Source: Deferrisomatales bacterium (GTDB lineage: Bacteria > Desulfobacterota > Deferrisomatia > Deferrisomatales > JARGFW01). Taken from it: DNA of 34,660 bases. The DNA lies in the NCBI GenBank assembly GCA_029211085.1, contig JARGFW010000030.1:1-34660 (forward strand). Reading direction: 5' to 3'. Shown here piece by piece: positions 4,879-25,839 of the stretch. The first letter of the stretch is position 1. Every line of letters begins with the position of its first letter. Both the position numbers and the translations under genes were made by a program. The notes under the pieces were generated by a model that saw nothing but the letters and a program-made list of their open reading frames with translations, was not told where the DNA came from and ran no database searches.

Positions 4879-4954
4879 TGGTGAGCCGTGCAGGACTCGA
4901 ACCTGCGACCGCCTGATTAAAAGTCAGATGCTCTACCACCTGAGCTAACGGCCC
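4879..4954 (-). tRNA. tRNA-Lys (anticodon TTT), CCA encoded
   Basis: Minus-strand GGGCCGTTAGCTCAGGTGGTAGAGCATCTGACTTTTAATCAGGCGGTCGCAGGTTCGAACCTGCACGGCTCACCA folds as a full cloverleaf. Confidence 0.97.
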
Positions 4955-15549: not shown

Positions 15550-15625
15550 GCGGGCGCAACTCAGTTGGTAGAGTATCAGCTTCCCAAACGGAGGGTCGCC
15601 GGTTCGAATCCGGTCGCCCGCTCCA
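15550..15625 (+). tRNA. tRNA-Gly (anticodon CCC), CCA encoded, two mismatches in anticodon stem
   Basis: GCGGGCGCAACTCAGTTGGTAGAGTATCAGCTTCCCAAACGGAGGGTCGCCGGTTCGAATCCGGTCGCCCGCTCCA. Acceptor, D and T stems pair; the anticodon stem has A29/G41 and C31/A39 mismatches. Confidence 0.85.
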
Positions 15626-15988: not shown

Positions 15989-17950
15989 TTGGTCATTCCC
16001 CGCTGGTTCAGAGACCTCAGTCTTCGCCGCAAGCTGATCGTGATGGTGCTGCCCCTCGCACTGGTGCCCCCGGTCCTGGTGGGTGCCGTGGTCGGGACCG
16101 TCGCGTCCCAGGAGGCCTTCTCGGGCGTGACCCGTGCAAGCCGGGATGATCTCGACCACCTGGCTTCGTTCACCTTGGACCTGCTGCAGGCCCACCACGA
16201 ACAGTTCCAGGTGTACCAGGAGGACAAACGGCGCACCATCCGCGAGGACCTGGCGTCCCTGGTGAACTTCGCCGTGGGGGTGGTGGAGGCCCAGCACCGG
16301 GCGTACCGGGAGGGACGGATCACCCGGGACGAGGCGCGGCGGCTCGCGGCCGAGGCGATTCGCAAGTCCAGCGTGGGGCGCTCCGGGTACGCCTACGCGA
16401 TGACCAGTTCCGGACTGTTGGTCGCCCACCTCGCCCGGGAGGGCGAGGTCATCCTCGACGAGCGCGACCCGGACGGCCGGCCGTTCATCCGGCAGATGTG
16501 CGAGGAGGCGGTGGCGGCGCCACCCGGGGCCGTGCTGCACACGGTGTACCCCTGGCAGAACCCGCTCTTCGGCGATACGGCGCCGCGCACCAAGAGCGTG
16601 GCGTTCCGCTACTTCGCGCCGTGGGACTGGATCGTCGCCGCCGGCAGCTATCTGGACGAGACCTACGAGGACGTCGCCTTCGAGCGGCGCAGCTTCGAGG
16701 CGCTCAAGGCCAAGGTGGAGGCGAAGCGGGTGGGCCAGACCGGGTACATCTACGCGATCGACGCCACCGGGACGGCGGTGGTCCACCCGTTTCGCGAAGG
16801 GGAGAACCTGGCGGACGAGACGGACGACGCAGGTCGGCCGTTCATCCGTGAGATGCTGGCAAACAAGTCGGGTTGGATCCGCTACCCGTGGCAGAACGCG
16901 ACCGACGCGGCGGGGCGCATGAAACTGGTGCGCTACGTGCACTTCGAGCCGTGGGACTGGGTGGTGGCCGTGGGTTCCTACGAGAACGAGTTCTTCGCCC
17001 AGGCCGCTTCGATTCGCAGCCGGGTTACCCGCACCACCGTGCTTCTCACCACCGCTACCGGCCTGGCGGCGATGCTGTTGCTGGTGTTCGCGTCCAGGGC
17101 CTTCACCAACCCGATCGAACGCATGACCGGGGTGATCCGGCGGGTGCGGGGCGGTGCCCTGAACGAGCGGATGGAGGTGGCGCGTTCGGACGAGCTCGGT
17201 GAACTCGGCGCGGCCTACGACCACATGATCGAGATCGTGCGGGAGCATCGCGCCATGGAGCAGGAGTTGGCCCAGCAGGGGAAGATGGCGTCCCTGGGAG
17301 TCCTGAGCTCCACCGTGGCCCACGAGATCAACAACCCCCTGGGCATCATGCTCGGTTACGCCGCGTTCCTGGAAAAGAAGCTCTCCCCCGACGACCCCAA
17401 CCACGCCTACGTGGTGAGCATCCGGCGGGAGTGCCAGCGCAGCAAGAAGATCGTCCAGGATCTGTTGGGCTATGCCCGGGTGTCCCGGCCGGTGTTCGCG
17501 CCGGTGGACGTGAACGACCTGCTCGCCCGCATCGCTGAGTTCGCCCGCAATCACGTGGAGATGGCGGCGGTGGAGATGGTGACGCGGTTCGACCCCCAGG
17601 TGCCCTGCGTCGAGGCAGACGGGGATCAGTTGCGCCAAATCGCGTTGAACCTGATGCTGAACGCCGGCGCGGCGATGGAACGGGGTGGCACGCTGACCAT
17701 CGAGACCCACGCCGAGCCCGGGGGCCGGGTGCGGATGGTCTTCCAGGACACCGGTGCCGGCATGAGCGAGGAGGTGCGTGAGAAGATGTTCGATGCGTTC
17801 TTCACCACCCGAGCCCGGGGCAGTGGGCTCGGCCTGGCGATCACGCGCCAGATCGTCGAACGGCACCGGGGCACCATCGAGGTGGAGACGGAAGTGGGGC
17901 GGGGCACCCGCATCACCGTGACGTTGCCGGTCGTCCACGAGGAGTTCTAG
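15989..17950 (+). CDS. Membrane sensor histidine kinase with duplicated Cache-type sensor, HAMP, HisKA and HATPase
   Basis: N-terminal TM (KLIVMVLPLALVPPVLVGAVVGTV); two Cache-like repeats (GRSGYAYAMTSSG..., GQTGYIYAIDATG...); H-box TVAHEINNPLGIMLGY; N/G boxes NLMLNAGAAM, GLGLAITRQIVERHRG. Start is uncertain (TTG 15989 with GGAG upstream); the ORF is open from 15767. Confidence 0.92.
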   Translation: MVIPRWFRDLSLRRKLIVMVLPLALVPPVLVGAVVGTVASQEAFSGVTRASRDDLDHLASFTLDLLQAHHEQFQVYQEDKRRTIREDLASLVNFAVGVVEAQHRAYREGRITRDEARRLAAEAIRKSSVGRSGYAYAMTSSGLLVAHLAREGEVILDERDPDGRPFIRQMCEEAVAAPPGAVLHTVYPWQNPLFGDTAPRTKSVAFRYFAPWDWIVAAGSYLDETYEDVAFERRSFEALKAKVEAKRVGQTGYIYAIDATGTAVVHPFREGENLADETDDAGRPFIREMLANKSGWIRYPWQNATDAAGRMKLVRYVHFEPWDWVVAVGSYENEFFAQAASIRSRVTRTTVLLTTATGLAAMLLLVFASRAFTNPIERMTGVIRRVRGGALNERMEVARSDELGELGAAYDHMIEIVREHRAMEQELAQQGKMASLGVLSSTVAHEINNPLGIMLGYAAFLEKKLSPDDPNHAYVVSIRRECQRSKKIVQDLLGYARVSRPVFAPVDVNDLLARIAEFARNHVEMAAVEMVTRFDPQVPCVEADGDQLRQIALNLMLNAGAAMERGGTLTIETHAEPGGRVRMVFQDTGAGMSEEVREKMFDAFFTTRARGSGLGLAITRQIVERHRGTIEVETEVGRGTRITVTLPVVHEEF

Positions 17951-19324
<1,374 letters not shown>

Positions 19325-19365: not shown

Positions 19366-19381
19366 TTCGCACCGCTGCGAA
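19366..19381. promoter_or_regulatory. Palindrome 2: TTCGCA-CCGC-TGCGAA
   Basis: Same core and spacer length as palindrome 1; centre 31 bp downstream. Confidence 0.7.
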
Positions 19382-19502
19382 GATGGCGTGCCCCGACGCC
19401 AGGTGGGCCGGCGAAACCCTCGCCAGGCGGGCCTCCGCGGCGATCCGCCGTGCCTCCCGGGCCCCAGCCGCCCACCGCCCCGCCCCACGCTCCCCGAATC
19501 GA

Positions 19503-19520
19503 TTTCGCATCGGTGCGAAA
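19503..19520. promoter_or_regulatory. Palindrome 3: TTTCGCA-TCGG-TGCGAAA
   Basis: Same 18-bp motif; about 110 bp upstream of the sigma-54 promoter. Confidence 0.7.
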
Positions 19521-19619
19521 ATCCCACCAGCCCCGGGCTCCCAACGAGGCCCGGCAGGCAGATGCAAGCCCACAACATTGCTGGAGTTTCCGTCAGGCGC
19601 ACCGGCCCTCCACCACCCC

Positions 19620-19635
19620 TGGCACGCCGATTGCT
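19620..19635 (+). promoter_or_regulatory. Sigma-54 (-24/-12) promoter TGGCACG-CCGA-TTGCT
   Basis: Full match to consensus TGGCACGN4TTGCW, lying between the palindromes and the ORF at 19700. Confidence 0.85.
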
Positions 19636-19699
19636 GTTTGCTCCCGGCAGGAACAGGACCGTGACCCGGGTTCCGCTTGGGCCCTCGGGAGGTGACAGG

Positions 19700-21502
19700 A
19701 TGCTGGAAAGACGCTTGCACAGGGTTTCGGGGGACGGAGGGGACCGCCGGGGGTGCCCCTACTTCGGCAACGGCGAAGCCGGCTGTGGGGTGGGCTTCGA
19801 CCACTCCTCGGCCGCGGACGTGGAGAGGATGGTGCGGTTCTGCAGCGGCCGCTTCAGCCAGTGCTTCCGGTACGCGGTCCTCTCCCACGGCAATCCGGGG
19901 TGCGGCGACGGCTCCCTGGGGCTGGAACTGGCGACGGCCAGCGTGGCCTGGGACGTGCTGCAGCACGAGTTGCGCTCTCCCCTGGCGGCGATCACCGCGG
20001 CGGCCGAGGTGCTGGCACGGATGCCCGACGACGCCGGTGCCGCGCGGTCCCGTTTCGTGTCGATCATTCAACAGGAATCGGGCCGGATGCGGCACACGGT
20101 GGAGGCGCTGTTCGACGGCGTGAACCAGTGCACGGAATCCAGAGTGGACGTAGCGGAACCGCATCATCCATCCGAAGGGAGGAGTAACAGCATGGCAAAA
20201 GGCAGGTGGAACAAGGGCTGGCGTGTGGTTCTGGCGGGCACCGGCATCAACCTGGCGTTGGGCATCCTCTACGCGTGGTCGATCTTCAAGAGCGCGATCC
20301 ACTTCTCGATCGAAGCCGGCGGGCCCGGCGCCTTCCAGTGGGACCTGGCGGCGATCAACGACCCCTACGCGGTGTGCTGCCTGGTCTTCGCGTTCGCCAT
20401 GATCGCCGGCGGCCGGGTGCAGGACCGCTTCGGACCCCGGCTGACGGCGATGGCGGGGGGCCTGTTGGTGGGTGCGGGCTTCCTGCTGATGTCCCTCTCC
20501 ACCGCCTACGTCATGTGGGTGCTCGGCTTCGGGGTGCTGGCCGGGTTGGGCATCGGCTTCGGCTACAGCGCCGCCACGCCGCCGGCGCTGAAGTGGTTCC
20601 CGCCGAAACAGACCGGCCTGGTGGCCGGGGTGGTGGTGAGCGGCTTCGGGCTCGCCTCGGTGTACATCGCGCCCCTGGCCAAGGTCCTGCTCGGCACCGT
20701 GGGGCTCCAGACCTCGATGCTGATCTTCGGCGTCGCGTTCGCCATCGTGGTGGGCCTGCTCTCACTGCTGCTGGTCAACCCGGATGCGGCCGCCGGCCCC
20801 GCCCGGGCCGGTCAGGATCCGGTCGTGGCAGCCAGCGTGTCCGGCCTCACTCCGACCCAGGTGCTCCGGACACCGGGTTTCTACGCCCTGTGGCTGGTGT
20901 TCTTCGCGGCCTCGGGTGCCGGGCTGATGGTGATCGGGTCCGTGGCGGGCATGGCCAAGGCCAGCCTCGGCGAAGCGGCGTTCGTGGCGGTGGCGGTGCT
21001 GGCGGTGGGCAACGCTTCGGGGCGCATCGTGGCCGGGGTGCTCTCCGACAAGATCGGGCGCGGCCTGACCCTGGCGATCATGCTGCTGTTCCAGGCGGTG
21101 CTGATGTACGCCGCCGCCGCCGGCATCCAGAGCTACGGGCCCACGGCACTGGTGGTCCTGGCCGGGCTCATCGGTTTCAACTACGGCACCAACCTGTCCC
21201 TGTTCCCCTCGTTCGCCAAGGATCGCTGGGGCATGGCCAACTTCGGCACCAACTACGGGCTGCTGTTCTCCGCCTGGGGGGTCGGTGGCCTGGTCGCGGG
21301 ACGCGTCAGTCAGATGCTGGTGGCCTCGTCCGGCAGCTTCAACTCCTCGTTTCTGATCGCCTGCAGCTCGCTGCTGATCGCCGCTACCATCGCACTGAGC
21401 CTGGAAGACAGCCGCAGACCCATCCTGGTTCTGCTGCGCAACCACTCTCCCCTGCGGGGCCGTGTCGCGGCCCAGGGGGATCGGCCCCGCAAGGTGGCTT
21501 GA
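19700..21502 (+). CDS. Cys-rich + orphan HisKA-like module in frame with an OFA-type MFS transporter (possible fusion; internal start at 20192)
   Basis: ATG 19700 follows GGGAGGTG. No stop before 21502. N-part: CPYF...FCSGRFSQCFRY...DVLQHELRSPLAAITAAAEVLARM. MFS part from ATG 20192, with its own GGGAGGAG, is 436 aa: NLALGILYAWSIFKSAI...GGRVQDRFGPRLTAMAGG. Confidence 0.85.
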   Translation: MLERRLHRVSGDGGDRRGCPYFGNGEAGCGVGFDHSSAADVERMVRFCSGRFSQCFRYAVLSHGNPGCGDGSLGLELATASVAWDVLQHELRSPLAAITAAAEVLARMPDDAGAARSRFVSIIQQESGRMRHTVEALFDGVNQCTESRVDVAEPHHPSEGRSNSMAKGRWNKGWRVVLAGTGINLALGILYAWSIFKSAIHFSIEAGGPGAFQWDLAAINDPYAVCCLVFAFAMIAGGRVQDRFGPRLTAMAGGLLVGAGFLLMSLSTAYVMWVLGFGVLAGLGIGFGYSAATPPALKWFPPKQTGLVAGVVVSGFGLASVYIAPLAKVLLGTVGLQTSMLIFGVAFAIVVGLLSLLLVNPDAAAGPARAGQDPVVAASVSGLTPTQVLRTPGFYALWLVFFAASGAGLMVIGSVAGMAKASLGEAAFVAVAVLAVGNASGRIVAGVLSDKIGRGLTLAIMLLFQAVLMYAAAAGIQSYGPTALVVLAGLIGFNYGTNLSLFPSFAKDRWGMANFGTNYGLLFSAWGVGGLVAGRVSQMLVASSGSFNSSFLIACSSLLIAATIALSLEDSRRPILVLLRNHSPLRGRVAAQGDRPRKVA

Positions 21503-21533: not shown

Positions 21534-21572
21534 ACTGCGGCGGGACCTTCGGGTCCCGCCGCAGTGGTTTTG
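21534..21572 (+). terminator. Perfect 14-bp hairpin with TTCG loop, then GGTTTTGG
   Basis: ACTGCGGCGGGACC-TTCG-GGTCCCGCCGCAGT between the convergent MFS and XDH-family genes. Confidence 0.85.
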
Positions 21573-21653: not shown

Positions 21654-23966
21654 TCAGGGGGTTTCTCGGGAACGATCTTCCGCTTCCCGTTTCTCCTTGA
21701 GCGCACGCCAGACTTTCTCGTAGCTCAGCGGCAGGCTGTTCACCCGCACTCCCATGGCGTCGAAGATGGCGTTGGAGAAACAGCCCATGGTCGGGTTGGT
21801 GGATCCCTCGCCGATCTCCTTGACCCCCCAGGGGCTGCTGATCTCGTGGCTGTCCACCACCTCCGACTGGATCGGCGGCATGTCCAGGGCGGTGACCAGC
21901 CGGTAGTTGGCGAGCTCGGCGTTGCGGATCTTGCCCTTGTCGTCGAACAGCACCTGCTCCCAGACGGTTTCGCCCAGGCCCATGGCCAGGGCGCCGTGCA
22001 CCTGGCCGTGGAGCAGGCGGGGGTTGATCACCTTGCCGCAGTCGTGCACGTCCCACACCCCGACCACGGTGACCTCCCCGGTTTCCTCGTCGATCTGCAC
22101 CTCACCCACCTGCACCCCGAAACTGTAGGACGGTGAGGTGCCCACCGCGGCGCCCTTGAACGTGCCGCCCAGTTTGGGGGGGTGGTAGGAGCCCTTGCCG
22201 GTGAGGGGCCCCTTGAGCACGAAGAACTTGCGGGCCACCTCTTCGAAGGAGAGGGTCTTGGCCTTTCTGGACCGGGAAAACACCACGCCGTCCTGGCAGT
22301 CCAGGTCGTCGGCGGGGATGCTGAGCATGAACGACGCCAGTTCGAGGATCTGCGCCTTGATCTGCTCTCCGGCCTGTTTCACCGCGGCGCCGCTCATCAC
22401 GGTCTGCCGGCTGGCATAGGCGCCGAAGTCATGGGGCGTGATCTGGGTATCCGCGGCGACGATCTTCATCTCCTCGTAGCGGTAGCCCATGGCTTCGGCG
22501 GCCATCTGGCAGAGGATGGTGTCGGAGCCCTGGCCGATGTCGGTGGCACCGGTGTAGAGGGTCGCCGCGGTGCCGTCCTCGTGCACGGTGATGATGGCCG
22601 CCGCCTGGGGCAGGTCGGTGCGGTAGATCGGGTAGCCGGCGCCGCTGACGAAGCTGCCGGTGGCCGCGCCGATGCCGCGGCCGTGGGTGCGGTTGGCCTT
22701 CTTCTGGTCCCAGCCCGAGATCTCCCGGGCCCGCTCCAGGCACTGGCGCATCTCGCAGGAGTTGACGATGAAGTCGTTGGGGGTGACCGTGTCGGGCCGC
22801 CGCGCGTTGCGGATGCGGATCTCCATGGGGTCGATCCCCAGCTCCTTGGCCACGTTGTCCAGGTGGCTCTCGAAGGCGTACTTGGGCTGGGGTGCGCCGT
22901 GGCCGCGCTGGGCGCCGCACGCGGGCAGGTTGGTGTAGACCCGGTGCATGTCGAACTTGTAGTGGTCGAACTCGTAGGTGAGCGGCAGCAGGGCGCCGGC
23001 GTAGTAGGCGGTGGCGATGCCGAGGCTGGTGTAGGCGCCACCGTCCATGATGAAGTTGGCCTTGGCGCCGAGGATCTTGCCTTCTTTCGTCACCCCGGTG
23101 GTGATCTCCATGTGCTGGGCGTGGCGGCCCCGGTTGTGGGCGAACATCTCGGCGCGGTCGTAGAACATCCGCACCGGCCGCCCGGTCAGCCGCGCCAGCA
23201 CGGTGCCGGCGAACTCCAGGCCCGTGGGCTCGAGTTTGCCGCCGAACCCGCCCCCCACGTGGGGTTTGATGATGCGCACGTCGCCCATGGGCATGCCGAA
23301 CTCCCGGGCGATGTAGTACTGGAAGTAGTGGGGTGACTGGGTGCTGGAGTAGATGGTGAGCTTCTCGCCGTCCCACATGCAGGTGGCCGAGTGGGGTTCG
23401 ATCGGCGCCTGGTAGGTGCGCTGTCCCAGGAAGGTGTCGGTGCGCACCAGGTAGGCCTCCGCGAACGCCTTCTCCACGTCGCCGAACTCCTGGTGGATCT
23501 CGGTGTTGATGTTGCGCGCGTACTCCTCCTGGACCAGGGGCTGCCCTTCGTCCATGGCGTGGAGGAAGTCGAGCACCGCGGGCAGCACTTCGTACTCCAC
23601 CTTGATCGCCCGCAGGGCCTCGTAGCAGGTGTCCCGGTCCACGCACGCCACGGCGGCCACCTTGTCGCCGACGAAACGCACCTTGTCGATGCAGAAGATG
23701 TTCTCGTCCCAGCGTGCCGGGCTGATGCCGTACTTTAGGTCCGGCACGTCCCGGTGGGTGATCACCGCCTTGACCCCCGGGAGCTTCTCCGCCTCGGACG
23801 TGTCGATGGACAGGATCCGCGCGTGGGCGTGGGGGCTGGTGAGGATCTTGCCGAACAGCATGTTGGGGAACGTGAGGTCGCCGCTGTACTTGGCGGCGCC
23901 GGTGACCTTGTCCCGGCCGTCGATGCGCGGCACGCTGCGGCCGATGACCTTGTAGGATTTGCTCAT
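21654..23966 (-). CDS. Xanthine dehydrogenase-family molybdopterin-binding subunit
   Basis: MSKSYKVIGRSVPRIDGRDKVTGAAKYSGDL...; GGGFGGKLEP; YTNLPACGAQRGHGAPQ; GATDIGQGSDT; PWGVKEIGEGS. ATG overlaps the upstream gene's stop. Confidence 0.95.
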   Translation of the reverse strand: MSKSYKVIGRSVPRIDGRDKVTGAAKYSGDLTFPNMLFGKILTSPHAHARILSIDTSEAEKLPGVKAVITHRDVPDLKYGISPARWDENIFCIDKVRFVGDKVAAVACVDRDTCYEALRAIKVEYEVLPAVLDFLHAMDEGQPLVQEEYARNINTEIHQEFGDVEKAFAEAYLVRTDTFLGQRTYQAPIEPHSATCMWDGEKLTIYSSTQSPHYFQYYIAREFGMPMGDVRIIKPHVGGGFGGKLEPTGLEFAGTVLARLTGRPVRMFYDRAEMFAHNRGRHAQHMEITTGVTKEGKILGAKANFIMDGGAYTSLGIATAYYAGALLPLTYEFDHYKFDMHRVYTNLPACGAQRGHGAPQPKYAFESHLDNVAKELGIDPMEIRIRNARRPDTVTPNDFIVNSCEMRQCLERAREISGWDQKKANRTHGRGIGAATGSFVSGAGYPIYRTDLPQAAAIITVHEDGTAATLYTGATDIGQGSDTILCQMAAEAMGYRYEEMKIVAADTQITPHDFGAYASRQTVMSGAAVKQAGEQIKAQILELASFMLSIPADDLDCQDGVVFSRSRKAKTLSFEEVARKFFVLKGPLTGKGSYHPPKLGGTFKGAAVGTSPSYSFGVQVGEVQIDEETGEVTVVGVWDVHDCGKVINPRLLHGQVHGALAMGLGETVWEQVLFDDKGKIRNAELANYRLVTALDMPPIQSEVVDSHEISSPWGVKEIGEGSTNPTMGCFSNAIFDAMGVRVNSLPLSYEKVWRALKEKREAEDRSRETP

Positions 23967-24559
23967 CGGGATCCTCCGTTGCCCACGGATGGGCGAGTGC
24001 CGCGGTCGCAGGACGCGATGGAGCGGCCTTGCGCAGCGGCAGGTGCGTCGTCCTCTGGTACCACCCGCCCCTCGGCGGCGGCCAGGACCGCCTCGACGAT
24101 GTGCACGTAGCCGGTGCAGCGGCACAGGTTGCCGGCGATCGCCTCGCGGACCTGGTGCTCGGTGGGGTGGGGGTTGCGGGTCAGCAGGGCCTTGGCGGAG
24201 AGCACCATGCCCGGGGTGCAGTAACCGCACTGCACGGCGCCGTAGTTGACCATCGCCTCCTGGATCGCGTCGAGCTTGCCGTTTTGCGCCACCCCCTCCA
24301 CCGTGGTGATCTCCCGGCCGTCTGCCTCCACCGCCAGCACCATGCACGAGTCGACGGGTTTGCCGTCGATCAACACCGTGCAAGAGCCGCAGTCGCCGAG
24401 CTCGCAGCCCTTCTTGGTGCCGGTGAGCTCCAGCTGGTCGCGCAGCGCGTTGGTCAGGGTGGTGTTGCCCTTGACCATCAGCGAGTGCTCGTCGCCGTTT
24501 ACCTCGAGGGTGATCAGGTAGCGCTTCACCCCGTGCTTGTCGGTCACACTCTGTGTCAT
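23963..24559 (-). CDS. (2Fe-2S)-binding subunit, xanthine dehydrogenase family
   Basis: CELGDCGSCTVLIDG and CGYCTPGMVLSA...CRCTGY motifs. Confidence 0.96.
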   Translation of the reverse strand: MTQSVTDKHGVKRYLITLEVNGDEHSLMVKGNTTLTNALRDQLELTGTKKGCELGDCGSCTVLIDGKPVDSCMVLAVEADGREITTVEGVAQNGKLDAIQEAMVNYGAVQCGYCTPGMVLSAKALLTRNPHPTEHQVREAIAGNLCRCTGYVHIVEAVLAAAEGRVVPEDDAPAAAQGRSIASCDRGTRPSVGNGGSR

Positions 24560-24571
24560 CTCGTTTCCTCC

Positions 24572-25441
24572 CTACCCGTGGCCTTCGTCGATCGCCTTGC
24601 GCAGGGCGCGCTTGGTGAGCACCTCCACCAGGTTGCGGCGGTACTCGGCGGAGCCACGGATGCTGTCCCGGGGCCGGCTCTCCTCCCCGGCGAGAACCCC
24701 GGCTCGCGCCAGGACCTCGTCGCTGATGGTGCGACCCGTGAGGAACTCCTCTGCGCGCCGCGCCCGCAAGACCGTGGGGGCTGCCGAGGACAGGGCGATG
24801 CGGGCCTCCACCAGGGTGTCGCCATCCACGGTGACCGCGACGGCCGAGCCGGCCACGGCCAGGGCGCCGGAGCGGCGCAGCCCGAACTTGATGTAGGTGC
24901 TGCCGGTGGCGCGCTGGTCGGGGATGGTGATCTCGGTGAGAACCTCCCCCCGGGCCAGGACGCTCTGCGCGGAGCCGACGAAGAACTCCTCCAGGGGCAG
25001 CGTGCGTTCCCCGGCGGCGGAGACCAGGCGGATCGTCGCCTGGAGGGCCACGAGAATCGGGGGAAGATCCGCAGACGGCACCGCGTTGGCGATGTTGCCG
25101 CCGATCGTGCCCAGGTTGCGGATCTGGTTGGACGCCATCTGGTGGGCCGCCTGGGACACCGAGAGGTAGCGCTCCTGGAGCAGCGGCGAGGTGTAGATGC
25201 CGTTCTGGGTGACCAGGGCCCCGATCACCACCCCTCGGCCCGGCACGTGGCGGATCTCCCGCAGTGCATCCAGATGCTTCAGCGACACCAGGTGCTGGGG
25301 GGTCAGTTTCCACTGCTTCATCTTGTGCACCAGGTCCGTGCCCCCGGCCAGCACCACAGCCTTGTCTCCCAGCTCGGCAAGCAGGGCGCAGACCTCGCCC
25401 AGGCTCTCCGGGGCGTGGTACTCGAAATCGGGCATGTTCAT
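24572..25441 (-). CDS. FAD-binding subunit, xanthine dehydrogenase family
   Basis: VLAGGTDL, IGALVTQNGI, NLGTIGGNIANAVPSADLPP motifs. Confidence 0.94.
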   Translation of the reverse strand: MNMPDFEYHAPESLGEVCALLAELGDKAVVLAGGTDLVHKMKQWKLTPQHLVSLKHLDALREIRHVPGRGVVIGALVTQNGIYTSPLLQERYLSVSQAAHQMASNQIRNLGTIGGNIANAVPSADLPPILVALQATIRLVSAAGERTLPLEEFFVGSAQSVLARGEVLTEITIPDQRATGSTYIKFGLRRSGALAVAGSAVAVTVDGDTLVEARIALSSAAPTVLRARRAEEFLTGRTISDEVLARAGVLAGEESRPRDSIRGSAEYRRNLVEVLTKRALRKAIDEGHG

Positions 25442-25560
25442 GGGCTATCTCCCTGCTCGGTGTCCTGGCGAGGTCGGGATCCGCAACAGCGTGGCGGCCG
25501 TCGCAAATCCCCGTGCTCATTTCTCTACGGTTTAGTATGGTGAACAAAGATAGGACCAGA

Positions 25561-25588
25561 AGTCTACCAGACAATGCACGGGAGTCAA
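25561..25588 (-). promoter_or_regulatory. Candidate sigma-70 promoter of the XDH-family operon
   Basis: Minus strand TTGACT - 16 nt - TAGACT in an AT-rich intergenic region. Confidence 0.45.
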
Positions 25589-25839
25589 GCCGCAATATCA
25601 ATGAAAGATATGGCTCATGTCCTAATTTTGTTGACCGTGCAGTGGTGCAACCGATGCATGGTTTCTCTGACTGAACGATCCGGAGGGGCGCCCCGCAGGG
25701 GGGTTCCCGGGCGCAGTCCACCGGCTCCGGCCACCTCTGCACCGGAGGCGGTCGGGCGCCCGGGGCCTGGCCGGGTGCCCCGCCGCCGGGGCGGCACGTC
25801 GGTTTCGCTATGGGGAAACGGGGTCCCGGGGGGGCCGGG

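Follow-up and report, generated by a model that had tools for sequence, protein, structure and literature searches.

The window, i.e. the whole 34,660-nucleotide stretch of Deferrisomatales bacterium DNA that was analyzed, carries a 600-amino-acid gene in which a four-cysteine domain, a DHp (HisKA) domain, a linker and an MFS transporter follow each other in one frame, preceded by genes for a sensor kinase and a sigma-54-dependent regulator (Table 1). Counted from the GTG at 19388, the open frame spans 19388–21502 (704 aa), but this GTG was ruled out as the start, being placed among the enhancers and ahead of the sigma-54 site. Judged from the sequence, the true start is the ATG at 19700, which has a Shine-Dalgarno sequence and follows the perfect sigma-54 promoter at a distance of ~65 bp. 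The 164-aa N-terminal part (19700–20191) consists of two modules, the cysteine domain and the kinase-less DHp. The arrangement agrees with the original prediction of a cysteine-rich part and a HisKA domain without kinase domain that read, with no intervening stop, into an OFA-type MFS protein with its own Shine-Dalgarno sequence and ATG at 20192; the spacing given there for the first cysteines (CPYF-x8-C) has to be corrected to CPYF-x6-C, i.e. C-x9-C. Elsewhere in the window, a large open frame on the minus strand (21654–25742) resembles by eye the large subunit of a molybdenum hydroxylase (xanthine/CO dehydrogenase type), with upstream subunits, and two tRNA genes were found, tRNA-Lys(TTT) at 4879–4954 (-) and tRNA-Gly(CCC) at 15550–15625 (+). 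On either strand, the latter is enclosed by what look like long ORFs, a caution that high-GC open frames in this window are often spurious.

Table 1 Features of the fusion gene and its upstream region in the window.
Feature	Position	Strand	Basis
Sensor histidine kinase: Cache, HAMP, HisKA (HEINNPL, NtrB-like), HATPase	15989..17950	+	Pfam sCache_2/dCache_2, HAMP, HisKA, HATPase_c
NtrC-type sigma-54-dependent response regulator, GAFTGA loop at aa 221	17951..19324	+	Pfam Response_reg, Sigma54_activat, HTH_8
Palindromic enhancer 1, TTCGCA-N4-TGCGAA	19335..19350	.	one of three exact genome matches
Palindromic enhancer 2	19366..19381	.	exact TTCGCA-N4-TGCGAA match
Palindromic enhancer 3	19504..19519	.	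exact TTCGCA-N4-TGCGAA match
Sigma-54 promoter TGGCAC-N5-TTGCT, perfect site	19620..19635	+	sequence pattern
Shine-Dalgarno of the long form, GGGAGGT	19687..19693	+	sequence
Fusion gene: Cys domain, DHp (HisKA), linker, MFS transporter; 600 aa	19700..21502	+	no stop; same join in 7/7 order homologues
Four-cysteine domain, C19, C29, C48, C55, invariant DV	19754..19879	+	Cys invariant in alignments
DHp/HisKA domain without kinase domain; H89 codon at 19964	19958..20113	+	Pfam PF00512; AlphaFold2 hairpin
Internal Shine-Dalgarno AAGGGAGGAG	20175..20184	+	duplex energy -11.3; best 0.4% of in-frame positions
OFA/SfMCT-type monocarboxylate (L-lactate) MFS transporter (predicted), internal ATG	20192..21502	+	NCBIfam NF049980; PDB 6g9x
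Likely terminator: hairpin CTGCGGCGGGACC-TTCG-GGTCCCGCCGCAG, then TGGTTTT	21535..21564	+	read from sequence

A homologue search retrieved the N-terminal part from six more genomes belonging to the order of the window, and in all order genomes carrying the gene (7/7) it joins a monocarboxylate (L-lactate type) MFS transporter in frame and without a stop; the same holds for 23 further MFS fusions outside these seven members. The linker between HisKA domain and transporter is poorly conserved and its length varies by whole codons among the homologues. In the pair G007/G009, pN was 0.04 for both the cysteine and the HisKA part as compared to pS values of 0.59 and 0.77, which points to purifying selection on both; the linker is looser (pN 0.19). 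The transporter's own Shine-Dalgarno sequence and ATG, together with the draft state of the genome (470 contigs), could raise the suspicion that two separate genes were merged by a lost stop, a frameshift or an assembly join, and a lost stop or frameshift had indeed been considered initially. However, the conservation of the join across families, the whole-codon indels and the constraint on the cysteine and HisKA parts exclude a lost stop or frameshift, and with the same join in 7 order genomes and 23 other MFS fusions an artefact of any kind appears extremely improbable. By these comparisons the fused homologues have no stop before the MFS part, and the signalling-transporter fusion is genuine, beyond chance and conserved in related bacteria, the second start being kept as well. 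Plasmids searched gave no match, a single-protein contig scan returned only one weak HisKA match in a Thermoflexus MAG, and no description of the fusion or of its cysteine domain was found in the open-access papers searched.

The transporter half scored 379.8 bits with the NCBIfam model NF049980 (cut-off 320) and is an MFS_1 protein according to Pfam, not an SLC5 symporter. It matches PDB 6g9x (E=6e-41) with Y119, N276, R280 and Y331 aligned and identical (positions hand-counted on the alignment); in SfMCT these residues bind or orient the substrate (PMC6573034). Family match and conserved residues together predict a lactate-type monocarboxylate as substrate. The second Shine-Dalgarno/ATG at the transporter start is kept in the 7/7 order fusions, and across all MFS fusions examined (30/30) a start codon lies ≤2 aa from the predicted MFS start, with internal Shine-Dalgarno energies of -7.4 to -12.7 that rank among the best 0.2–4.4% of in-frame positions. 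Because this internal start is present in 30/30, each MFS fusion gene probably yields two products, the long fusion (predicted ~62 kDa in the window) and a short transporter (~46 kDa), which makes the earlier idea of a transporter made alongside plausible. An additional OFA-type MFS paralogue, 59% identical and not fused to cysteine and DHp parts, was observed at G000:C269:643-1899 (L165) and G004:C54:21312-22559 (L166).

In the alignments, the cysteine domain is defined by four invariant cysteines (C-x8/9-C and C-x6-C), one glycine and an Asp-Val pair. It matches no Pfam or NCBIfam family above the cut-off and no PDB entry by sequence. A profile built from the cysteine part alone (A3) detected it in 22/395 genomes of the phylum, and a broader profile (A4) in 204/277 genomes of one other class. 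The domain occurs in three forms: as a stand-alone protein of 63–80 aa, whose gene usually precedes those of two undescribed membrane-associated proteins and, in some cases, of a separate OFA MFS; as an in-frame fusion to an OFA-type MFS; and as an in-frame fusion to the unrelated acetate transporter AceTr/SatP. Several of the AceTr fusions lack a usable start codon where the two parts meet and must therefore be made as one fused protein. A tree of 42 MFS sequences requires at least 3–4 changes between fused and unfused states; fusion and/or splitting thus occurred repeatedly. The cysteine domain rather than the HisKA domain emerges as the widespread conserved core, a point that the first reading of the locus had missed. 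The four invariant cysteines suggest a metal or Fe-S centre; the part is poorly modelled by AlphaFold2 from the single sequence (pLDDT below 50). At the stand-alone loci L072–L074, L078–L083 and L153–L157, the genes after the cysteine gene encode an 83-aa protein (smallA) and a ~349-aa protein with ~7 TM (smallB), neither of which has a Pfam family above the cut-off, and some of these loci also encode a 40-aa peptide (smallC). Because several stand-alone loci have no MFS or AceTr gene in the surrounding DNA examined, smallB may itself be a transporter. The fusions to AceTr/SatP (GPR1/FUN34/YaaH) at L075, L077 and L138–L152 mostly have the same kinase/regulator and enhancers, and three genomes (G418, G492, G511) contain both an MFS and an AceTr-type fusion.

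The fusion gene is embedded in a sigma-54/enhancer circuit that had also been missed. The neighbouring regulator has the features of an NtrC-type protein (receiver, AAA+, HTH and GAFTGA), and the proposed target carries enhancers and a sigma-54 promoter. The exact palindrome TTCGCA-N4-TGCGAA occurs three times in the 5.8-Mb genome, with all copies in the fusion-gene promoter, and the reversed palindrome used as a control gave zero matches in the same 5.8 Mb. The relaxed pattern TTYGCA-N4-TGCRAA was found upstream of 53/61 cysteine genes (94 sites, with a spacer of always 4 bp) and a strict sigma-54 pattern upstream of 34/61, as compared to 0.0007 per locus in shuffled sequences in each case. 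Kinase and regulator homologues (~48–61% identical) flank most cysteine genes with enough surrounding DNA. Within the class, 7/12 genomes contain both the kinase orthologue and the fusion and 5/12 contain neither; in G002 the kinase lies on a different contig from the fusion. The kinase orthologue at G007:C22:53312-55255 contains one in-frame TAG, which might stem from a faulty assembly or truly truncate the kinase.

The DHp matches PF00512 over residues 87–138 (E=2e-8; 34.6 bits, gathering cut-off 26.9) with the H-box HELRSPLAAI at 19964–19993, and Pfam gave no HATPase match in either the 164-aa part or the whole 704-aa frame. AlphaFold2, run on the single sequence, modelled a helical hairpin (72–107 / 113–149) with block pLDDT up to 92, for which the top Foldseek match was the histidine kinase HK853 (probability 0.98, weak E of 0.44). 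The fused DHp is present in 6/7 members of the window's order, absent from G001, which keeps the cysteine domain and the fusion, and was not seen in the other fusions examined outside this order; it is therefore dispensable for basic function. Where it is present, the H-box histidine, whose conservation had been singled out as decisive, is invariant (6/6). Its closest same-genome relative is in 6/6 genomes the DHp of a CrbS/CbrA-like symporter-GAF-kinase (SSS-GAF-HK) or its orthologue, with 36/57 identical residues in G004 and 21–24/57 in the other genomes compared. In this kinase, GAF, HisKA and HATPase score above the cut-off and SSF just below it (19.2 bits, cut-off 22.8). In family f3, the nearest kinase is a 460-aa orthologue with the same gene neighbourhood and no symporter; the f3 genomes with a fused DHp have this short form (460 aa in G009 and G002, frames of 463–468 aa in all four), and in G005 and the f4 genomes, which have no fusion, the symporter-kinase is long (~1085–1155 aa). 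The symporter domain was apparently lost in f3, precisely the family with the best-conserved fused DHp. The symporter-GAF-kinase (L161 3399–6632; L163 4934–6316, in reverse-complement coordinates; L164 5314–6699) adjoins cobalamin genes. Derivation of the fused DHp from the adjacent kinase was rejected, with alignment scores of 30–47 as compared to 101–154 for the symporter-kinase. The adjacent kinase has the H-box HEINNPL and the fused DHp one of HELRTPL type, and at the positions expected from HK853-type specificity to contact the response regulator, the invariant TSSFI of related kinases is changed to A/T-A-A/S/T-A/S/C-I/V.

Three readings of this orphan domain were weighed. One possibility is that the tethered DHp acts on the adjacent NtrC-type regulator, as its phosphatase or as acceptor of its phosphate, which would create a negative feedback from transporter level to transcription. 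This would fit the invariant histidine, the conserved T/S at +4 and P at +5 and the E at +1 (5/6, T in G004), as well as the regulator gene adjoining the fusion in 6/7 loci, and HisKA kinases depend on T/N at +4 for their phosphatase activity (PMC3510030). However, the window has Ser at +4, where its relatives have T, and the adjacent DHp shows GIGYF at the contact positions as compared to AAAAV/AATSI in the fused one. Reports on the DHp alone as a phosphatase conflict, and DHp-only EnvZ showed no such activity in one later test (PMC8971529). We consider feedback on the regulator improbable. Since the fused DHp is of HELRTPL type, closest to another kinase family and changed in its regulator-contact residues, phosphotransfer with the kinase at 15989–17950, as originally envisaged, is likewise not favoured.

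The domain might instead pair with the SSS-GAF kinase, or with the orthologue that lacks the symporter, in mixed four-helix bundles and couple lactate transport to kinase output. Its similarity to exactly this kinase and the short form of the latter in f3 genomes with a fused DHp speak for this, but numbers are small and ancestry is shared, identity is low outside G004 and the contact residues differ, which leaves the mixed bundle doubtful. Alternatively, the DHp could be a mere dimerization or spacer device for the cysteine domain and the transporter, without phosphate chemistry. The drift around H89 (E replaced by T in G004, T by S in the window), the altered regulator-contact positions and the absence from G001 are consistent with such a role, even though the histidine never varies and the DHp is as constrained as the cysteine domain in close pairs; a spacer is a serious possibility that falls somewhat short of probable. 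Because the residues at the regulator-contact positions are changed, a structural or mixed-dimer role is favoured, without certainty, over phosphotransfer to the neighbour.

Altogether, the best explanation, which we regard as reasonably probable, is a monocarboxylate (lactate-type) transporter with a cytoplasmic regulatory module on its long form, expressed from a sigma-54 promoter under the control of the neighbouring two-component system. The fusion, the circuit and the phylum-wide cysteine domain are well supported, as the in-frame join and its conservation, the conserved second Shine-Dalgarno start, the distribution of the cysteine module and the kinase/regulator/enhancer/sigma-54 arrangement are all read from the sequences, whereas for the workings of the circuit and the function of the cysteine and DHp parts we infer the following. 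The Cache kinase would sense an external carboxylate, the regulator would bind the three palindromes and switch on the fusion gene from the sigma-54 promoter, and ribosomes would produce a long and a short transporter. The cysteine domain might hold a metal or Fe-S centre and adjust or report transport according to redox or metal state, and the DHp might dimerize the long form or form mixed bundles with the CrbS/CbrA-like symporter-kinase, with no phosphate passed to the adjacent regulator. In a more far-reaching scenario, which seems rather unlikely, the undescribed cysteine domain would have been added to unrelated carboxylate transporters throughout the phylum and one order would have captured the symporter-kinase DHp, so that the lactate transporter docks into the kinase dimer and reports its state while the internal start makes untethered copies.

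Most of the known transporters with a second role as sensors are SLC5 kinases. In the SLC5/STAC kinases (CrbS, CbrA, RpuS), a transporter is likewise fused to a histidine-kinase part, and in the same genomes the fused DHp has its greatest similarity to a symporter-GAF-kinase that resembles them; the fusion differs from them by its MFS instead of SLC5 transporter, the position of the DHp before the transporter, the missing kinase domain and the extra cysteine domain. Its transporter half is like SfMCT and other OFA proteins (NF049980; PDB 6g9x, 8hpj), scoring above the cut-off with all four substrate residues conserved, but the solved chains of 420–427 aa leave no room for the N-terminal cysteine-DHp extension. 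DHp domains without a kinase domain have been described as EnvZ fragments (Zhu 2000, as cited in PMC8971529); these are laboratory truncations without link to a transporter, unlike the fused DHp, a natural case in which the abilities of a DHp lacking its kinase domain can be tested. In Desulfovibrio, the sigma-54 response regulator DVU3023 belongs to a two-component system controlling lactate permeases (PMC3333781). Sigma-54-dependent control of lactate-type transporters would be common to both circuits, but the targets differ and no fusion is described for DVU3023.

The AceTr/SatP (GPR1/FUN34/YaaH) fusions of the same phylum share the N-terminal cysteine domain, mostly the same kinase and regulator neighbours and the same enhancers, but have an unrelated transporter fold, no DHp and often no internal start. 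An unnamed cysteine domain is found on carboxylate transporters of two unrelated folds that share one conserved sigma-54 circuit, and this may explain how carboxylate uptake is tuned in these bacteria; enhancer motif, target gene and domain are directly testable in cultivable members. Compared with these known systems, the fusion represents a new variant among transporter-signalling fusions, with a core domain that is undescribed.
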